A stretch of 44,106 nt of DNA from a virus, in IMG/VR virus record IMGVR_UViG_3300031963_000292, positions 1-44,106 of that record; one strand, given 5' to 3'. The number at the start of each line of letters is the position of its first letter. The first letter of the stretch is position 1. This document shows positions 6,170 through 41,346 of this stretch, in pieces. The notes beneath the pieces were generated by a model that was not told where the DNA came from, did no database searches, and saw only the letters and a program-made list of their open reading frames with translations. Both the position numbers and the translations under genes were made by a program.

Positions 6170-7030
6170 ATGAAACAAGCAGTATTATCACTAAGTGGAG
6201 GAATGGATAGCTCCACCTTGCTGCTTCATCTACTCGCCAATGGCTATGAAGTAACAGCTCTATCCTTTGATTATGGACAGAAACACCGTGTTGAGCTTGA
6301 ACGTGCTCAAGAATTAGTTAAGTACGTTAATGATCAAAACTGTGGATGTGGTGGTAAACCAATCTATGGTAATGTAACCCATCAAATTATTAAATTAGAT
6401 GGACTACAACAACTACTCAATTCAGCATTAGTTGAAGGTGGTCAAGATGTACCTGAAGGACACTACGAGCAATCCAATATGAAGGAAACAGTAGTTCCTA
6501 ATCGCAACAAAATATTTAGCTCACTAATCCAAGCAGTAGCATTATCAGTAGCTACTAAAGGTGAAAAACAACCAGTAGATATTGCATTAGGTATTCATGC
6601 TGGTGATCATGCTATCTATCCTGATTGCAGACAAGAGTTTAGGGATGCTGATATGGAAGCGTTTAAAATTGGTAACTGGGATTCTGAATTAGTTAATTTC
6701 TATACTCCATATCTTAACACAGATAAGTTTGGTATTTTACAAGATGGAGAGTTGGCTTGTCAGAAACTTAGACTTAACTTCGATGAAGTTTATAAGCGCA
6801 CAAATACCTCTTATAAGCCAATTAAGCATTATTACAGACCAGAAACATATGCTTTTAAGTGGTACAGCGATTATAAATCAGCAGCATCAGTAGAGCGAAT
6901 TGAGGCATTTTTAAAACTCGGTCGTCCTGATCCTGTGGAATATGCTGATGAAACAGGACCTGTTAGTTGGGAAGTAGCTAAAGAGCATGTAGAATCAGTA
7001 TTATTAGAGCATAAAAGAACAAACATTTAA
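6170..7030 (+). CDS. queC: 7-cyano-7-deazaguanine (preQ0) synthase-like protein (QueC/ExsB)
   Basis: QueC turns 7-carboxy-7-deazaguanine into preQ0 with two ATP. The PP-loop is intact: LSGGMDSST at 8-16, followed by LSFDYGQKHRVELERA, and the VVPNRNKIFSSL segment matches the QueC VPNRN motif. HAGDHAIYPDCRQEF also fits the family. It is longer than bacterial QueC (286 versus about 230 aa), with an inserted CGCGGK segment near residues 60-66. The C-terminal zinc site of QueC (SCY...CGXCXXC) is not kept: the matching region reads NTSYKPIKHYYRP and then KWYSDYKSAASVERIEAF, with no cysteines. Catalysis is likely but the zinc-less C terminus is unusual. Confidence 0.86.
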   Translation: MKQAVLSLSGGMDSSTLLLHLLANGYEVTALSFDYGQKHRVELERAQELVKYVNDQNCGCGGKPIYGNVTHQIIKLDGLQQLLNSALVEGGQDVPEGHYEQSNMKETVVPNRNKIFSSLIQAVALSVATKGEKQPVDIALGIHAGDHAIYPDCRQEFRDADMEAFKIGNWDSELVNFYTPYLNTDKFGILQDGELACQKLRLNFDEVYKRTNTSYKPIKHYYRPETYAFKWYSDYKSAASVERIEAFLKLGRPDPVEYADETGPVSWEVAKEHVESVLLEHKRTNI

Positions 7031-10862: not shown

Positions 10863-11498
10863 ATGGAACTATTAAAGAAGTCAAATGGTAGTTTACCTCG
10901 TACACAGAAAGAGGTAGATAAAATGATTGAAAAAGCAGCTAAAGCATACGGTGATTTCCTTAACGCCGTAGGATTTGATTATACAGCTGATAGACAAACA
11001 GTAGATACTCCTCGTCGTGTAGCCAAAGCATGGCTTAAGGATTTGATTGTAGGTAGTATTACTGATGAACCAAATATCACAGTATTTCCTAATGATGAAG
11101 GTTATAGTGGATTAGTTATCCAATCAGGGATTCCTATCGTTAGTATGTGTGCACATCACAATCTTGCATTCACAGGTTATGCTACATTAGCATACGTACC
11201 TAGTGAAAATGTAATTGGATTAAGTAAATTGAATCGTATTGTAGAATGGTTTTCTCGTAGACCACAAATGCAAGAATCACTTACTCAACAAATTCATGAT
11301 TATCTAGCTACTAAAATGGATTGCCCATCAGTAGCAGTAAGCATCGCTTGTAAACATACATGCTGCTCACATCGTGGAATTAAACATCCATCTGTAATGA
11401 CTACAAATAAATTTAGTGGTGTGTTTATGGAAAAGGACAATTTAATTCGTGAGGAATTCTTACATGCAATTGAGGTTAACGGAACAAAAATGAAGTAA
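10863..11498 (+). CDS. folE: GTP cyclohydrolase I (FolE)
   Basis: FolE opens GTP to dihydroneopterin triphosphate, the first step to 7-deazaguanines (and folate). Zinc ligands are present: C96 and H99 in VSMCAHHNLAF and C167 in CKHTCCSHRG. The active-site segments GYATLAYVPSENVIGLSKL, RIVEWFSRRPQMQE and the catalytic His region are all there. Length 211 aa matches the family. It completes the FolE-QueD-QueE-QueC route in the window. The product starts MELLKKSNGS after a 32-base AT-rich leader, and it overlaps the next gene by one base. Confidence 0.95.
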   Translation: MELLKKSNGSLPRTQKEVDKMIEKAAKAYGDFLNAVGFDYTADRQTVDTPRRVAKAWLKDLIVGSITDEPNITVFPNDEGYSGLVIQSGIPIVSMCAHHNLAFTGYATLAYVPSENVIGLSKLNRIVEWFSRRPQMQESLTQQIHDYLATKMDCPSVAVSIACKHTCCSHRGIKHPSVMTTNKFSGVFMEKDNLIREEFLHAIEVNGTKMK

Positions 11499-18154: not shown

Positions 18155-18574
18155 GTGAACATTATGACACAATTTGCAGCACATTTTGGCATTGAGCCAT
18201 TCGACATCGTTTGGAAGAATTTCTTCGACACAAACGCACAGTTCAACACATTTGAACAAAAAATCAACTATCCAGTTGACATTTACGAAACAGACAAAGG
18301 ATTACGTTTCGAATTAGCCGTAGTAGGCCTTGACAAATCAGATATCGACATTCAGGTAGAAGGAGATACACTCCGCATTAAACACGAAAGACAAGAACAA
18401 GAGGCACGTCAGTACCTTCAAAGAGGTATTGCTAAGCGCTCGTTTGATCTAGCTTGGAAAGTAGCCGTTAAATTTAATTTAGCTAATCTTGAGGCTAAAT
18501 TGGATAAGGGCTTATTAATCATCGACATTCCTTATGCCGATGAACAAGCACCAAAGAAAATCAAGATTAAGTAA
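18155..18574 (+). CDS. Small heat-shock protein, Hsp20/alpha-crystallin type
   Basis: A 139-aa small chaperone holding unfolding proteins. The alpha-crystallin domain runs from NYPVDIYETDKGLRFELAV (about residue 42) through VGLDKSDIDIQVEGDTLRI to LEAKLDKGLLIIDIPY, matching the A-x-x-x-n-G-v-L motif in a divergent form. The C-terminal KKIKIK carries the I-x-I-type anchor. It begins at GTG 18155 with Shine-Dalgarno AGGGAG (alternative ATG 18164). It precedes groES/groEL, separated by one small gene, so the chaperones form a block; its 5' region holds a possible thermometer hairpin. Confidence 0.9.
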   Translation: MNIMTQFAAHFGIEPFDIVWKNFFDTNAQFNTFEQKINYPVDIYETDKGLRFELAVVGLDKSDIDIQVEGDTLRIKHERQEQEARQYLQRGIAKRSFDLAWKVAVKFNLANLEAKLDKGLLIIDIPYADEQAPKKIKIK

Positions 18575-18611
18575 GTTTTGAAATCAAAAAGATCTGTCGT
18601 ATTTTTAAGTT

Positions 18612-18779
18612 ATGGAAATCATAGTATATAAAGGTGAAGCCGCTTGGGGCAGATCAGCTTATCTAAAATTGATAGATGATAAGGTGGTATTTGACTGCTC
18701 GAATGAAGAGTATGGTCCAATTGAGTTTGACCTTAAATTACTAATTGAAGCACTAAAAAAACATAAAAATGAAGATTAA
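18612..18779 (+). CDS. Small protein, unknown
   Basis: A 55-aa frame between hsp20 and groES, starting MEIIVYKGEAAWGRSAYLKL, with a beta hairpin (LIDDKVVFDCSNEEYGPIEF) and a helical Lys-rich end. It overlaps the groES start by 11 bases, which supports coupled translation. No family recognised. Confidence 0.5.
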   Translation: MEIIVYKGEAAWGRSAYLKLIDDKVVFDCSNEEYGPIEFDLKLLIEALKKHKNED

Positions 18780-19059
18780 ACCACTGCATAATCACGTAGT
18801 GATTAAACAACAAGATGAAACTGAAACAATGTATGGTAACATTGTAGTACCTGATATGGGTAAAGAAAAACCATTAATGGGTGAGGTTCTAGCTATAGGA
18901 CCTGGAGTACATTCAGTTACAGGAACTTGGATTGAAACTAAAGTACAAGTAGGTGAAACAGTAGTGTTTCCTGCCTTTGGTGGAACTAAAATGACTATTG
19001 AAGGTGAAGAGTATGTTGTAATGAAAGAATCTGATTTGTTGGCAATTTTAGAAAAATAA
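18769..19059 (+). CDS. groS: Co-chaperonin GroES
   Basis: A 96-aa GroES: the start MKIKPLHNHVVIKQQ matches the IRPLHDRVV strand, GNIVVPDMGKEKPLMGEVLAIGPG matches the mobile-loop region (usually flanked by G-x-I-V-x-P) and turn, and the end EGEEYVVMKESDLLAIL matches the GroES terminus. It would cap the GroEL ring encoded 3 bases downstream. T4 replaces GroES with the unrelated gp31; here a true GroES homologue is present together with its own GroEL. Confidence 0.96.
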   Translation: MKIKPLHNHVVIKQQDETETMYGNIVVPDMGKEKPLMGEVLAIGPGVHSVTGTWIETKVQVGETVVFPAFGGTKMTIEGEEYVVMKESDLLAILEK

Positions 19060-19062
19060 GAT

Positions 19063-20694
19063 ATGAGTAAAATTATAAAATTTAATCGCGAAGCGAAAGA
19101 AAAACTACAAGCCGGTATTGATAAAGTAAATAACGCTGTAGCAGTTACAATGGGTCCTTTTGGACGTAACGTGTTAATTGAAAAAGAACACGGACAAGTA
19201 GCATCAACTAAAGATGGTGTTACGGTTGCTAAAACAATTTCATTGGAGGATCCAATTGAAAATATGGCTGCCACTATTATTAAACAAGCAGCATCAAAAA
19301 CAGTTGATCAAGCAGGTGATGGTACAACTACCTCAACTGTATTAGCACATGCTATTGCCTCTCAAGCATTAGCAGTTACTGCTCATTCATCTACTAATGC
19401 TACTCAAGTAAAGCGTGGTATTGAAGAGGCTGTTAAAACAGTAGTTGCTGAATTAAAAACAATGTCAGTAGATGTTACTGATGAAAAGCAAATTAAACAA
19501 ATTGCCACATTATCAGCTAATGGTGATACTGAAATTGGAGAATTAGTAGCTACAGCAATTGATAAAGTAGGTAGAGATGGAATTGTAACAGTAGAGGAAT
19601 CACGCTCAGGTGAAACTGAACTTGAGGTGGTTGAGGGAATGCAATTTGATCGTGGTTATAAATCACCTTATATGGTGACTGATAACAACACAATGCAAGC
19701 AATTTTAAATGATGCTTTTATCTTATTATATGATGGTCGTTTAAGTGCAATTAAGGATTTACTTCCTATCCTTGAGCGTGTATCATCTGATAATAAAGCA
19801 TTATTGATTGTAGCTGAAGATATTGATGGTGAGGCACTTTCAACCCTCATTGTAAATAAAATGAGAGGTATCTTAAAAGTAGCTGCTGTTAAAGCACCTG
19901 ATTTTGGTGAGCGCCGTACACTCATTCTTGAGGATATTGCTACTGTAACTGGTGGTACTGTAATTTCACCTACCAAAGGTATGAGATTAGATCGCTTCAA
20001 TATGGAGTGGTTAGGTAAAGCTAGAACAGTTACTGTAGGTAAAGATACCACTACTATTGTAGATGGTAAAGGTAGTGAAGATAAAATTAATGAGCGTATT
20101 GTAGAATTAAAATCTCAGATTGAAGCATCTAGTTCACCATATGAAATTGAGCGTTTACAAGATCGCTTAGCTAAAATCGTTGGTGGTGTAGCTATTATTA
20201 ATGTAGGTGGTGGTACTGAGGTTGAAATGAGAGAAAAGAAAGATCGTATTGATGATGCTTTACAAGCTACAAAAGCTGCTCTTGATGAAGGTATCTTACC
20301 AGGTGCCGGTGTATCATTGTTACATGCTAGTAGAAAAATTAATGTACTTGGTGGTAACGATAAAGCTAAAGGAGCATTGATCGTGTTTAAAGCCTGCGGC
20401 AAACCATTCAAACAAATACTTGAAAACGCTGGTGAAGAAACAAATGAATGGCTAATGAAATTATCTACAACAGAAAGCAACCCTTGGTATAATAAAGTAC
20501 CAGATATTGCTACTGGAGAATTAATAGATGCTTCCGAATCAGGTATTATTGATCCAACTAAAGTAGTACGTTGCGCACTTGAAAACGCTGCTCACGCTGC
20601 CGTTACGTTACTAATGACTGAATGTGTCATTCATGAAAAACCAACCGATAAGAAAAAATCAGATGATTTTGGAATGGCAGATTTAGGAATGTAA
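19063..20694 (+). CDS. groL: Chaperonin GroEL (60 kDa)
   Basis: A 543-aa full-length chaperonin. The ATP site DGTTT is present in VDQAGDGTTTSTVLAHAIA (about 82-100), MGPFGRNVLIEKEHG marks the N-terminal equatorial segment, and AAVKAPDFGERR the apical segment; GGVAIINVGGGTEVEMREKKDRIDDAL and DEGILPGAGVSLL are the intermediate and C-terminal signatures. The end is GMADLGM instead of a (GGM)n tail. It folds host or phage proteins with the adjacent GroES. Complete GroEL genes are rare on phages, so the phage may have folding needs not met by the host. Downstream gene: clamp loader. Confidence 0.97.
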   Translation: MSKIIKFNREAKEKLQAGIDKVNNAVAVTMGPFGRNVLIEKEHGQVASTKDGVTVAKTISLEDPIENMAATIIKQAASKTVDQAGDGTTTSTVLAHAIASQALAVTAHSSTNATQVKRGIEEAVKTVVAELKTMSVDVTDEKQIKQIATLSANGDTEIGELVATAIDKVGRDGIVTVEESRSGETELEVVEGMQFDRGYKSPYMVTDNNTMQAILNDAFILLYDGRLSAIKDLLPILERVSSDNKALLIVAEDIDGEALSTLIVNKMRGILKVAAVKAPDFGERRTLILEDIATVTGGTVISPTKGMRLDRFNMEWLGKARTVTVGKDTTTIVDGKGSEDKINERIVELKSQIEASSSPYEIERLQDRLAKIVGGVAIINVGGGTEVEMREKKDRIDDALQATKAALDEGILPGAGVSLLHASRKINVLGGNDKAKGALIVFKACGKPFKQILENAGEETNEWLMKLSTTESNPWYNKVPDIATGELIDASESGIIDPTKVVRCALENAAHAAVTLLMTECVIHEKPTDKKKSDDFGMADLGM

Positions 20695-35503: not shown

Positions 35504-36043
35504 ATGCCTCGTCAACGTCGCTCCAAATTAGACCCATTAAGTCGAATCATGACTCTCGGTGATATAGAAACTGAGATAGTAAATGATATTATTCATAGTA
35601 TATATGAGATAAATGAAGAGGATATTAAAAAACAAACAGCAGAACCAATAAAACTAATAATCAACTCAGCTGGTGGGGAAATATACAGTGGATTAGCTTT
35701 AATTGATGTAATTGGCACTTCGTTTACTCCAATCCATACAATATGTCATGGCTCAGCCATGTCTATGGGTTTAATAGTGTTTGTAGCTGGTCATCAAAGA
35801 ATGGCGAGCCCCAATGCTACATTTATGTATCATGAAGCTATGTATGGTCTTGAGGGGAAAACAATGTATCATAAACAAGAAATGAAAGAAGCAAATCGTG
35901 TTGATAAGATATGTGATGATTATTTATTATCTAAAACAAAGTTAACACAAAAATTACTAGATAATGTTAAAAAAACACAAGCAGAATGGTATTTCGATGC
36001 GAAAACTGCGTTGAAACATGGTGTGGTAAGTGAAATTCTGTAA
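35504..36043 (+). CDS. clpP: ClpP-like serine protease
   Basis: A 179-aa ClpP/crotonase-fold protease. SAGGEIYSGLALIDVI is the ClpP N-terminal signature, CHGSAMSMG places the nucleophile at S87 (C-x-G-x-A-x-S-M-G), and FMYHEAMYG gives H110. Aligning the tail AEWYFDAKTALKHGVVSEIL with ClpP [20 protein letters not shown] puts Glu161 in the place of the catalytic Asp. It could be a prohead or regulatory protease; no Clp ATPase is near. It is flanked by ATATTTATA boxes, so it may be a single-gene unit or head of a short one. Confidence 0.85.
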   Translation: MPRQRRSKLDPLSRIMTLGDIETEIVNDIIHSIYEINEEDIKKQTAEPIKLIINSAGGEIYSGLALIDVIGTSFTPIHTICHGSAMSMGLIVFVAGHQRMASPNATFMYHEAMYGLEGKTMYHKQEMKEANRVDKICDDYLLSKTKLTQKLLDNVKKTQAEWYFDAKTALKHGVVSEIL

Positions 36044-38481: not shown

Positions 38482-38611
38482 CCTGAAGACGGTGCTAATA
38501 AGCATTGACGCCACCGAGGTTAATTGGGATTTAGGCAAGTGCCTATATCGGTTAGAAAAGCCAGTTATAAAAAGCAGTTGTCCACGCACCCATCTACTGC
38601 TTTCCCTCACC
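38482..38611 (+). other. Structured intergenic segment, unassigned
   Basis: Between tRNA-Glu and a tRNA-like element. No credible gene and no tRNA T-arm found. It holds several hairpins: CGGTG (38490-38494) with CACCG (38512-38516); TAGGC-AAGT-GCCTA at 38532-38545; and AAAGCAGT (38571-38578) with ACTGCTTT (38596-38603), 8 bp around a 17-base loop. It may be a separate small RNA or a spacer of a co-transcribed tRNA array. Confidence 0.4.
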
Positions 38612-38710
38612 TGACCCTTAGCTCAGTAGGTTAGAGCAAGCTTCAGTACTTCGCGAATCCAAAACGCAAGGAAAAAAGCCGTGCCACTGGTTCGATTCCA
38701 GTAGGGTCAG
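38612..38710 (+). tRNA. tRNA-like element with enlarged anticodon loop (isotype unknown)
   Basis: Acceptor TGACCCT (38612-38618) pairs with AGGGTCA (38703-38709), discriminator G; D stem GCTC/GAGC and T arm ACTGG-TTCGATT-CCAGT are intact. Between them, where a 7-base anticodon loop is expected, a 4-bp stem GCTT/AAGC (38640-38643 and 38676-38679) encloses 32 bases that include a further hairpin (CTTCGCG with CGCAAG, 38649-38670). So it has about 25 extra bases. No anticodon or U33 can be assigned. It could be an intron-containing tRNA, a degenerate tRNA, or a tRNA-like RNA with another job. Confidence 0.5.
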
Positions 38711-39139: not shown

Positions 39140-39376
39140 ATGGAAGTATTTGGCTGTTATTATTTATTAACTCTTTTATATTGCATGATAATGCAAGCAA
39201 GAAGATGGAAACAAGATGCTATGGCTGGTGGATTAGGAATTTCCCCAGGATTAGATACTTTATCTTTACTAATCATGTGTTGGGCTTTAGCACCCGTTGA
39301 TATATTTTTGAAATGGGTTGAGGTATATAAAGAAGCAGAAGAGGCAAGACGTCGTGGAGCTAAAAAAAGATTGTAA
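39140..39376 (+). CDS. Small membrane-associated protein, unknown
   Basis: A 78-aa protein starting MEVFGCYYLLTLLYCMIMQA (first membrane helix), followed by GGLGISPGLDTLSLLIMCWA (second helix) and a Arg/Lys-rich tail. It begins 6 bases after the previous stop. Its stop codon at 39374-39376 lies inside the 5' acceptor strand of the tRNA-like element that starts at 39372, so coding and RNA overlap. Confidence 0.6.
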   Translation: MEVFGCYYLLTLLYCMIMQARRWKQDAMAGGLGISPGLDTLSLLIMCWALAPVDIFLKWVEVYKEAEEARRRGAKKRL

Positions 39377-39527
39377 GGTGGTGAAATAACCTAGGTTATG
39401 GTAGACACTCCCACTCGTCTCGTGGGCGCGGAGCTCGAAATAGGTAAGTAATATGGATTGACCACGTAGCGCGCTATGTTGTTATTTACTAAATCGCCGC
39501 ATGTTGGTTCGAATCCAACCCTTACAA
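39372..39527 (+). tRNA. tRNA-like element of 156 nt with large insertions
   Basis: Acceptor TGTAAGG (39372-39378) pairs with CCTTACA (39520-39526), discriminator A. The D arm is Leu-like, GTG/CAC, but its loop contains the perfect 14-bp palindrome ATAACCTAGGTTAT (39386-39399). A 5-bp arm CCCAC-TCGTCTC-GTGGG follows; the loop would give GTC but position 33 is C, not T. Then about 75 bases form a long arm: GCGG (39428-39431) with CCGC (39497-39500) and GGTAAGTAA (39443-39451) with TTATTTACT (39482-39490), ending in an intact T arm GTTGG-TTCGAAT-CCAAC. It looks like a class II tRNA with an extreme variable arm, or a degenerate or re-purposed tRNA. Confidence 0.5.
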
Positions 39528-39530
39528 CAC

Positions 39531-39968: not shown

Positions 39969-40295
39969 ATGGCATGTCATTGCTTACATTTAAAAGATTC
40001 AAAAGAGTTCTTCGCGTTGCTTAAACAACGCGATCCTGAACTTATATTGAAAATGGTCAAATGTGTACTTAGTGCTGCCAAAAGAGGTAAAGATAAAATA
40101 GACATATTTGAAATTACCTTTAAAAATATGGATGAACTAACATTTGGTATTGATCAGTCTCAATATAAAGAAATGTTAGGTAATTGTATGGATGATTTAA
40201 TTGCTATGGAAGAATATGAATTGTGTGCTGAGGTTAAAAAAATATTAGAGAAAAAAACTCGTAAAACGAGAAAGCCAAAAGCTGAAGTTCTTTAA
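39969..40295 (+). CDS. Small Lys-rich helical protein with UVR-like tail
   Basis: A 108-aa protein: MACHCLHLKDSKEFFALLKQ, a helical centre, then YKEMLGNCMDDLIAMEEYEL and CAEVKKILEKK, a tail that resembles the protein at 36379-36678 (a short helix pair with E-E-Y-x-x-C-A). The C terminus is basic (KKTRKTRKPKAEVL), suited to nucleic-acid or protein binding. It stops 5 bases before the tmRNA. Confidence 0.6.
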   Translation: MACHCLHLKDSKEFFALLKQRDPELILKMVKCVLSAAKRGKDKIDIFEITFKNMDELTFGIDQSQYKEMLGNCMDDLIAMEEYELCAEVKKILEKKTRKTRKPKAEVL

Positions 40296-40300
40296 AATAT

Positions 40301-40659
40301 GGGGGAGTCCAGGTATTGCTCCGTAATGTGAAGGTACCACTACATGCAGGCGTTTGGATATGTCGCCTTTAAACAAATTTTCAAACAATAAATGACGAAA
40401 TGTCAACAATGACCTTCGACGACTTAATGGCGTTCGTAGGTGCCGATTACGCTGTAGCAGCCTAATCCGCGAGGGGCAGCTGATAGCCTTGCAACAGAAC
40501 AGCACTTTAGTTTTCCTAGTTATGTCAAAACTAGGTGGTGGAGCCGACGTTAACCAAAATCAACGTCCCCAATTACTGATCAGCTTGCAGATCTAAGCAT
40601 GTGATACGCTGGTGTTATTGTTCCTTATGGATACACGGGTTCGATTCCCGTCTCCTCCA
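40301..40659 (+). ncRNA. ssrA: tmRNA (SsrA RNA), phage-encoded
   Basis: Acceptor GGGGGAG (40301-40307) pairs with CTCCTCC (40652-40658) with a G-T at the third pair, as in tRNA-Ala and tmRNA; discriminator A40659; T arm ACGGG-TTCGATT-CCCGT (40635-40651). It encloses a reading frame ending GCCGATTACGCTGTAGCAGCC-TAA, i.e. a tag ending in GADYAVAA; the stop is at 40463-40465. The frame opens after TAA at 40370-40372; the most natural tag start is near 40391 (NDE...), giving about 24 residues, longer than the usual 10. Several pseudoknot-forming segments follow. Length about 359 nt is normal. Sits 5 bases after gene 39969-40295. No CCA is encoded. Confidence 0.9.
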
Positions 40660-40664
40660 CAAAT

Positions 40665-41016: not shown

Positions 41017-41021
41017 TATAC

Positions 41022-41313
41022 AAAACGTGGCCGAATAAGCGGTTGAGAGCTGCTAAGGCACTGGCAAAATAGCTGAAAAGCTGTTGAGTTGGGTTTCACA
41101 GACGGATGAGTTTAAACCACCACCATCAAGGGTAGAATGCGCAACCCGAAGGTGCTCTGGATACGCTGAAGAACATTAATCATGATCTCCGCAGGCGTTG
41201 TTGGTAATCAAACCAACCTGTCGTTAACACTTAGACTGATCATCTTTGTGGACAGTGGGTGAAAAGGGGTCCGTCCAGGGATTGTGGGTAATCATTACTC
41301 CCATCATTTTTTT
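41022..41313 (+). ncRNA. Candidate structured non-coding RNA of about 300 nt
   Basis: From just after an ATATTTATA box to an intrinsic terminator there are about 290 bases with no plausible gene, noticeably more G+C rich than the surroundings. Local pairings include GGGT-AGAATGCGCA-ACCC, GGTTT...AAACC, TTGGT...ACCAA and TGGGTAA-TCA-TTA-CTCCCA. The first part (GTGGCCGAATAAGCGG) is reminiscent of a Ser/Leu tRNA D-arm, but no tRNA fits. The hallmark motifs of RNase P, SRP RNA or tmRNA are not found. It is a candidate regulatory or large phage RNA; no family assignment. Confidence 0.6.
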
Positions 41314-41346
41314 AAGGGTGGTTCGTTCGCGAACCGCCCTTTTTTT
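41314..41346 (+). terminator. Strong Rho-independent terminator
   Basis: 12-bp stem AAGGGTGGTTCG / CGAACCGCCCTT (one T-G wobble) with a TTCG loop, followed by a run of T. It terminates the ncRNA and insulates the next gene; the next ATATTTATA box starts immediately after it. Confidence 0.95.

Follow-up and report, generated by a model that had tools for sequence, protein, structure and literature searches.

The 44-kb virus record IMGVR_UViG_3300031963_000292 (44,106 nt, analysed as a whole and hereafter called the window) carries, just 3′ of four tRNA genes called by ARAGORN, a locus that resembles a tmRNA gene with an unusually long tag. This raises two questions, namely whether the RNA is a genuine tmRNA and why a phage should keep a tag so different from those of its probable hosts.

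A tmRNA gene in a phage of probable Bacteroidota hosts

The window RNA is a real tmRNA. ARAGORN called a one-piece gene with the tag DEMSTMTFDDLMAFVGADYAVAA (Table 1), and the Rfam model RF00023 matched over its full length (40301–40662, model positions 1–374) with 64.8 bits, above the cut-off of 47 (E = 3.8e-23). The initial annotation had described a complete tmRNA with a G-T third pair, a T arm and an internal frame, to be checked against the Rfam model and for its pseudoknot, and it agrees with both programs. Every one of 36 distinct phage tmRNAs from the window and related records has the alanine identity pair G3-U70, and in 35 of them both the acceptor stem and the T stem pair completely, compensatory changes occurring at acceptor pairs 4–7 and in the T stem; in the exception (L137, from record G027) three acceptor pairs are broken. 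Pseudoknot 1 is present and covaries above both shuffled and slid controls: across 15 sequences, 76% of cells were paired compared with 38–50% when the pairing was slid, and the covariation score was 0.407 versus 0.171 after shuffling. Within this pseudoknot P3 was strong and P4 weaker (68% of cells paired), while the region of PK2–PK4 was aligned by Rfam with low accuracy. No Rfam riboswitch matched the window tmRNA, and the Bacteroidota promoter motif TTTG-N-TANNTTTG did not occur in the window above chance.

Table 1 Features of the tmRNA locus and selected genes of the window (window coordinates)
Feature	Position	Strand	Basis or remark
QueC and GTP cyclohydrolase I	6170-7030 and 10863-11498		
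Hsp20, GroES and GroEL, consecutive, phage-encoded	18155-20694		
ClpP-like protease gene, ~4.3 kb upstream of tmRNA	35504..36043	+	PF00574, 90.7 bits
Conserved 108-aa protein directly upstream of tmRNA	39969..40295	+	14 relatives
tmRNA (ssrA) gene, one-piece, CCA not encoded	40301..40660	+	ARAGORN; Rfam RF00023
Acceptor stem, 5′ strand	40301..40307	+	Sequence; pairs with 40652-40658
Acceptor G3 with U70; discriminator A	40303 with 40656; 40659	+	Sequence
Pseudoknot 1	40348..40386	+	P3 40348-40352/40364-40368; P4 40353-40356/40382-40385
Resume codon GAC, right after TAA-A-T	40394..40396	+	ARAGORN; TAA[AC][CT] kept before it in relatives
Tag reading frame DEMSTMTFDDLMAFVGADYAVAA	40394..40465	+	Stop TAA 40463-40465
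Tag core S4-D18 (STMTFDDLMAFVGAD), predicted short capped helix	40403..40447	+	
Tag C-terminal part YAVAA, ClpX-type	40448..40462	+	Sequence
T arm of tRNA-like domain, ACGGG TTCGATT CCCGT, standard	40635..40651	+	
Family B DNA polymerase, DnaB-like helicase, block of sugar genes	window		Gene content

The phage host is probably a member of the Bacteroidota, as had been proposed at the outset, because a 630-aa window protein carries a T9SS sorting domain, a mark of this phylum (PF18962, 28 bits, cut-off 27), and part of the window is similar to Flavobacterium phage immuto (68% identity). Relatives were gathered via the phage GroEL, the ClpP-like protein and the 108-aa protein adjoining the tmRNA, and they define a clade of phages of ~155–183 kb that probably infect Bacteroidota. 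A tmRNA scored above the Rfam cut-off in 35 of 68 other related records and in eight of the 11 records of at least 155 kb, a ninth (G027) lying just under it with 45.6 bits. The Rfam search of these 11 large records found no tmRNA in the near-complete G013 and G019, and the gene is therefore not essential to the clade. A search of immuto likewise returned no tmRNA. In one relative (L133), an otherwise normal phage tmRNA has a frame change that cuts the tag after VGADYE, which is either a natural variant or an assembly error.

Several neighbours of the tmRNA gene deserve mention in their own right. The 108-aa protein has 14 relatives, at least eight of which have a tmRNA directly downstream. 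Its AF2 model (pLDDT 89) resembled no fold in the PDB at E ≤ 0.001, so that we rejected it as a known adaptor, and its significant matches were to uncharacterised viral proteins only. Downstream, a structured non-coding RNA of ~310 nt (41020–41345) ends in a terminator hairpin and is conserved in several relatives; changes on both sides occur in 29 of its 91 predicted pairs (seven sequences), and it had no Rfam match above the cut-off. Upstream, the RNA at 39371–39529 resembles tRNA-Leu with a long domain inserted ahead of the T arm; it is conserved in dozens of relatives, with 15 of 40 pairs covarying, and had neither an ARAGORN call nor an Rfam match above the cut-off. A further tRNA-like gene with a long insert (38612–38710) reached 42 bits with the Rfam tRNA model and was missed by ARAGORN; it is preceded by a conserved stretch (~38517–38605) that recurs in relatives. 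Elsewhere in the window, QueC together with GTP cyclohydrolase I suggests synthesis of 7-deazaguanine (preQ0), perhaps for DNA modification.

A long tag conserved at the peptide level

With GAC as its most likely start, the window tag comprises 23 encoded residues (DEM...). The initial annotation had read about 24 residues from near NDE; the frame stands, with the N lying before the resume codon at 40394 and thus outside the tag. Its view that the tag is longer than normal holds: tmRNAs scored above the cut-off in 141 of 148 Bacteroidota genomes, and 81 of the 85 host tags that were read had 9–10 residues, as in GENNYALAA. At over twice this length, the window tag lies outside the 9–10-residue range typical of the probable host phylum. 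The resemblance of its end to a bacterial degron was also recognised correctly, YAVAA being of the normal ssrA kind.

We ran a DNA pattern for the tag core, with codons left degenerate, on viral contigs. At least 120 viral stretches matched, nearly all of them inside tmRNAs among the matches listed, and the full tag could be read from 109 of the listed matches (at least 109 records), giving 47 distinct tags. Tag lengths in the phages were 23–27 residues, and the core consensus across them was S[TSD][MWF][TS]F[EDN]D[ALMV]M[SA]F[VI]GAD. Most tags resemble DVELSTMTFEDAMSFVGADYAVAA, whereas a second class resembles DNKKSRQEIGASIINMAFANVAVAA. Among the matches listed, all 47 unique tags had A as the last residue and 45 ended in AA; FA, SA or TA takes its place in a few (for example, DEATFA and DYAVSA).

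The tag core is under strong peptide-level selection, and both conservation and selection are well supported. For a set of sequences chosen by Rfam alone and not by tag, pN/pS in the class A core was 0.23 in frame (95%: 0.19–0.26) compared with 1.28 and 1.74 in the shifted frames, values drawn from pairs of related and hence not independent sequences, yet with equal relatedness in the shifted frames. The M-x-F-V-G-A-D half of the core had a pN/pS of only 0.11, and class B (six sequences) showed 0.33 in frame versus 1.64 and 1.80 in shifted frames. Within the RNA the tag is the best-conserved segment, with a mean identity of 0.76 compared with 0.71 for the 3′ tRNA-like part and 0.45–0.60 elsewhere.

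The tag seems confined to viruses. A slightly stricter core pattern searched against 84,980 bacterial and archaeal genomes matched no tmRNA and gave a single chance match (L260), in which the motif lies in another frame outside any tmRNA; we therefore rejected acquisition of the tag from hosts. A tblastn search with the tag against 50,697 phage records gave no match, which for so short a query is a weak test, and a mycobacteriophage tag searched likewise gave none either. Other phage proteins yielded only chance-like matches to the tag motif, and no chain among the PDB sequences matched the tag peptide.

A candidate two-part tag and its alternatives

We consider it fairly likely that this is a working phage tmRNA which depends on host SmpB and appends a tag of two parts, a conserved docking helix and a ClpXP degron. 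The host alanyl-tRNA synthetase would load the RNA with alanine, and host SmpB and EF-Tu would bring it to stalled ribosomes, which would thereby be released. During infection, Ala-DEMSTMTFDDLMAFVGADYAVAA, in which Ala is the residue carried by the tmRNA, would then be added to the unfinished protein. The N-terminal module, a putative short capped amphipathic helix, would dock on a partner (an adaptor or a protease, of host or phage origin), while the C-terminal module YA(V/L)AA would be gripped by host ClpX. Neither SmpB nor a Clp ATPase was found in the 17 phage records searched, so phage-encoded versions of either were rejected and host factors would be needed.

The two modules are suggested by the peptide itself. 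The core follows the pattern [MWF]-[TS]-F-[EDN]-D-x-M-[SA]-F-[VI]-G, that is, a hydrophobic residue, an N-cap Thr/Ser, an acidic first turn, a hydrophobic face and a Gly C-cap, and such a capping pattern is that of a short self-capped helix. An AF2 model computed in single-sequence mode for a 30-residue frame, which includes seven untranslated residues, places a helix over the core and hints that it may form a short capped helix. Ends of the YA(V/L)AA type are gripped by ClpX, as in the E. coli ssrA tag, and the hydrophobic-Ala-Ala terminus (VAA in the window tag) predicts the same recognition here.

Four other readings have to be weighed against this one. The extended tag might divert its substrates away from ClpXP towards a different protease, for instance Lon; in Mesoplasma florum, an ssrA tag of divergent length and sequence is recognised by Lon (PMC8138137). 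The core does contain many hydrophobic and aromatic residues, and the terminal AA has been lost in some cases (DEATFA, DYAVSA). This reading is nevertheless unlikely, as 45 of 47 unique tags among the matches listed retain a ClpX-type AA terminus and the invariant M, F and G resemble a docking motif more than general hydrophobicity. M. florum is not known to possess ClpXP, and this motive for a switch does not hold for Bacteroidota. The suggestion in the initial annotation that tagging is redirected to other proteases is not supported. Slightly less probable still is an ordinary spare tmRNA that adds rescue capacity during infection, with the longer tag as a non-specific unstructured extension: tmRNAs are familiar phage cargo (402 of 18,146 phages; PMC9004378) and sit among tRNA genes, as in the window, but here selection at the peptide level acts strongly on the extension itself, and not on the end alone, and no other part of the RNA is better conserved.

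The protease encoded upstream offers a further reading, in which the tag feeds a phage proteolysis module made of the ClpP-like protein working with host ClpX. Its gene occurs in 29 of 36 tmRNA-bearing records at a similar relative position, and Ser87 and His110 are invariant in 20 sequences. Shared ancestry is enough to explain this association, however, since seven of 19 searched records without a tmRNA above the cut-off also have the gene; in addition, the N-terminal loop region is missing, Glu replaces the catalytic Asp in 19 of 20 sequences and PHROGs also matches head maturation proteases. NCBIfam ClpP models matched the protein below their cut-off. The ClpP-like protease is a candidate partner of the tmRNA, and a dedicated module of this kind is improbable. 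That the conserved frame encodes an independent small protein overlapping the tmRNA by chance could draw on the strong codon-level selection and on an ATG at tag codon 3 in the window, but in the relatives the frame lies where translation resumes on a covarying tmRNA and ends in an ssrA-type YAxAA. We rejected this very improbable reading because the relatives share no start codon ahead of the core (for example, AEELSSFTFEDAM).

Taken together, we favour a working tmRNA with a two-part tag, and the signal by which the cell tags proteins seems to have been rewritten in this virus family. Whether the change amounts to reprogrammed trans-translation, in which a virus-specific docking helix and a ClpX degron would send stalled proteins to a particular phage or host partner that the host tag does not address, is a more tentative matter, to which we give somewhat less than an even chance. 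If true, the clade could in this way control which proteins are destroyed in infection, or withstand RNA-cutting defences. A host-unlike tag that is kept in at least 109 viral records and selected as a peptide implies that what a phage tmRNA encodes matters in itself, beyond ribosome rescue; its conservation bears on why phages carry their own tmRNA and points to a further protein interaction. The phage tag may also find use as a new degradation tag in Bacteroidota research.

Relation to known tmRNAs and tags

Phage tmRNAs, including those of Bacteroidota phages, are already known. They have been reported in ten phages (PMC4131195), among huge phages (PMC7162821) and in Cellulophaga phage Calle (PMC8776804), and we found one above the Rfam cut-off (87.6 bits) in phage phi38:1 of the same genus (Callevirus), so that the novelty which the initial annotation saw in a Bacteroidota phage tmRNA does not hold. 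The phi38:1 tmRNA also has a long tag (22 residues by ARAGORN); it reads AQIEANMEAVNAILNLEVAVGV, is without clear sequence likeness to the window tag and belongs to an unrelated 72-kb podovirus. What appears new is a family-wide, virus-specific extended tag, as our literature search, mostly outside subscription journals, returned no report of a conserved tag of this kind. An annotated tmRNA of Maribacter phage Panino (PP540027; L362, 27557–27889) is a separate case: it overlaps tRNA genes at both ends, is called by ARAGORN as permuted and scores below the Rfam cut-off, and is likely a false annotation.

With the bacterial one-piece tmRNA of the Bacteroidota type (RF00023), the phage RNA shares the G3-U70 acceptor, T arm, P2, PK1, resume codon and a short tag frame ending in AA-stop, and in both the CCA is usually not encoded. 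It differs in its tag, which has 23–27 residues with a conserved inserted core compared with the 9–10 residues of the GENNYALAA type, and in its Rfam scores, which range from 52 to 105 bits in related phage records above the cut-off compared with 105–200 for nearly all Bacteroidota hosts. One Bacteroidota genome contains a second, degenerate-looking tmRNA copy (L300, G171:C1:772761-773172; 49 bits) with the host-type tag.

Mycobacteriophages (Bxz1, Wildcat and others) and Bacillus phage G also encode a tmRNA (PMC4131195) in other hosts, the tag of phage G being 13 residues long (AKLNITNNELQVA) versus 23 in the window. The Wildcat tmRNA is the most highly expressed lytic gene of its phage (PMC7474061), a precedent for activity. 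Methylophage Melnitz and pelagiphages likewise keep a tmRNA within an aquatic phage group (PMC9004378), but theirs is permuted, in two pieces and accompanied by a glutamine riboswitch, whereas the window tmRNA is in one piece and has no Rfam riboswitch match. Mesoplasma florum resembles our phages in an ssrA tag that departs from the usual bacterial length and sequence, with a matching change of protease, yet it is a cellular organism without ClpXP. In the E. coli ssrA tag the adaptor SspB recognises one part and ClpX the end, and it is this arrangement of an adaptor-binding part and a ClpX-binding end that the proposed two-module phage tag would parallel.
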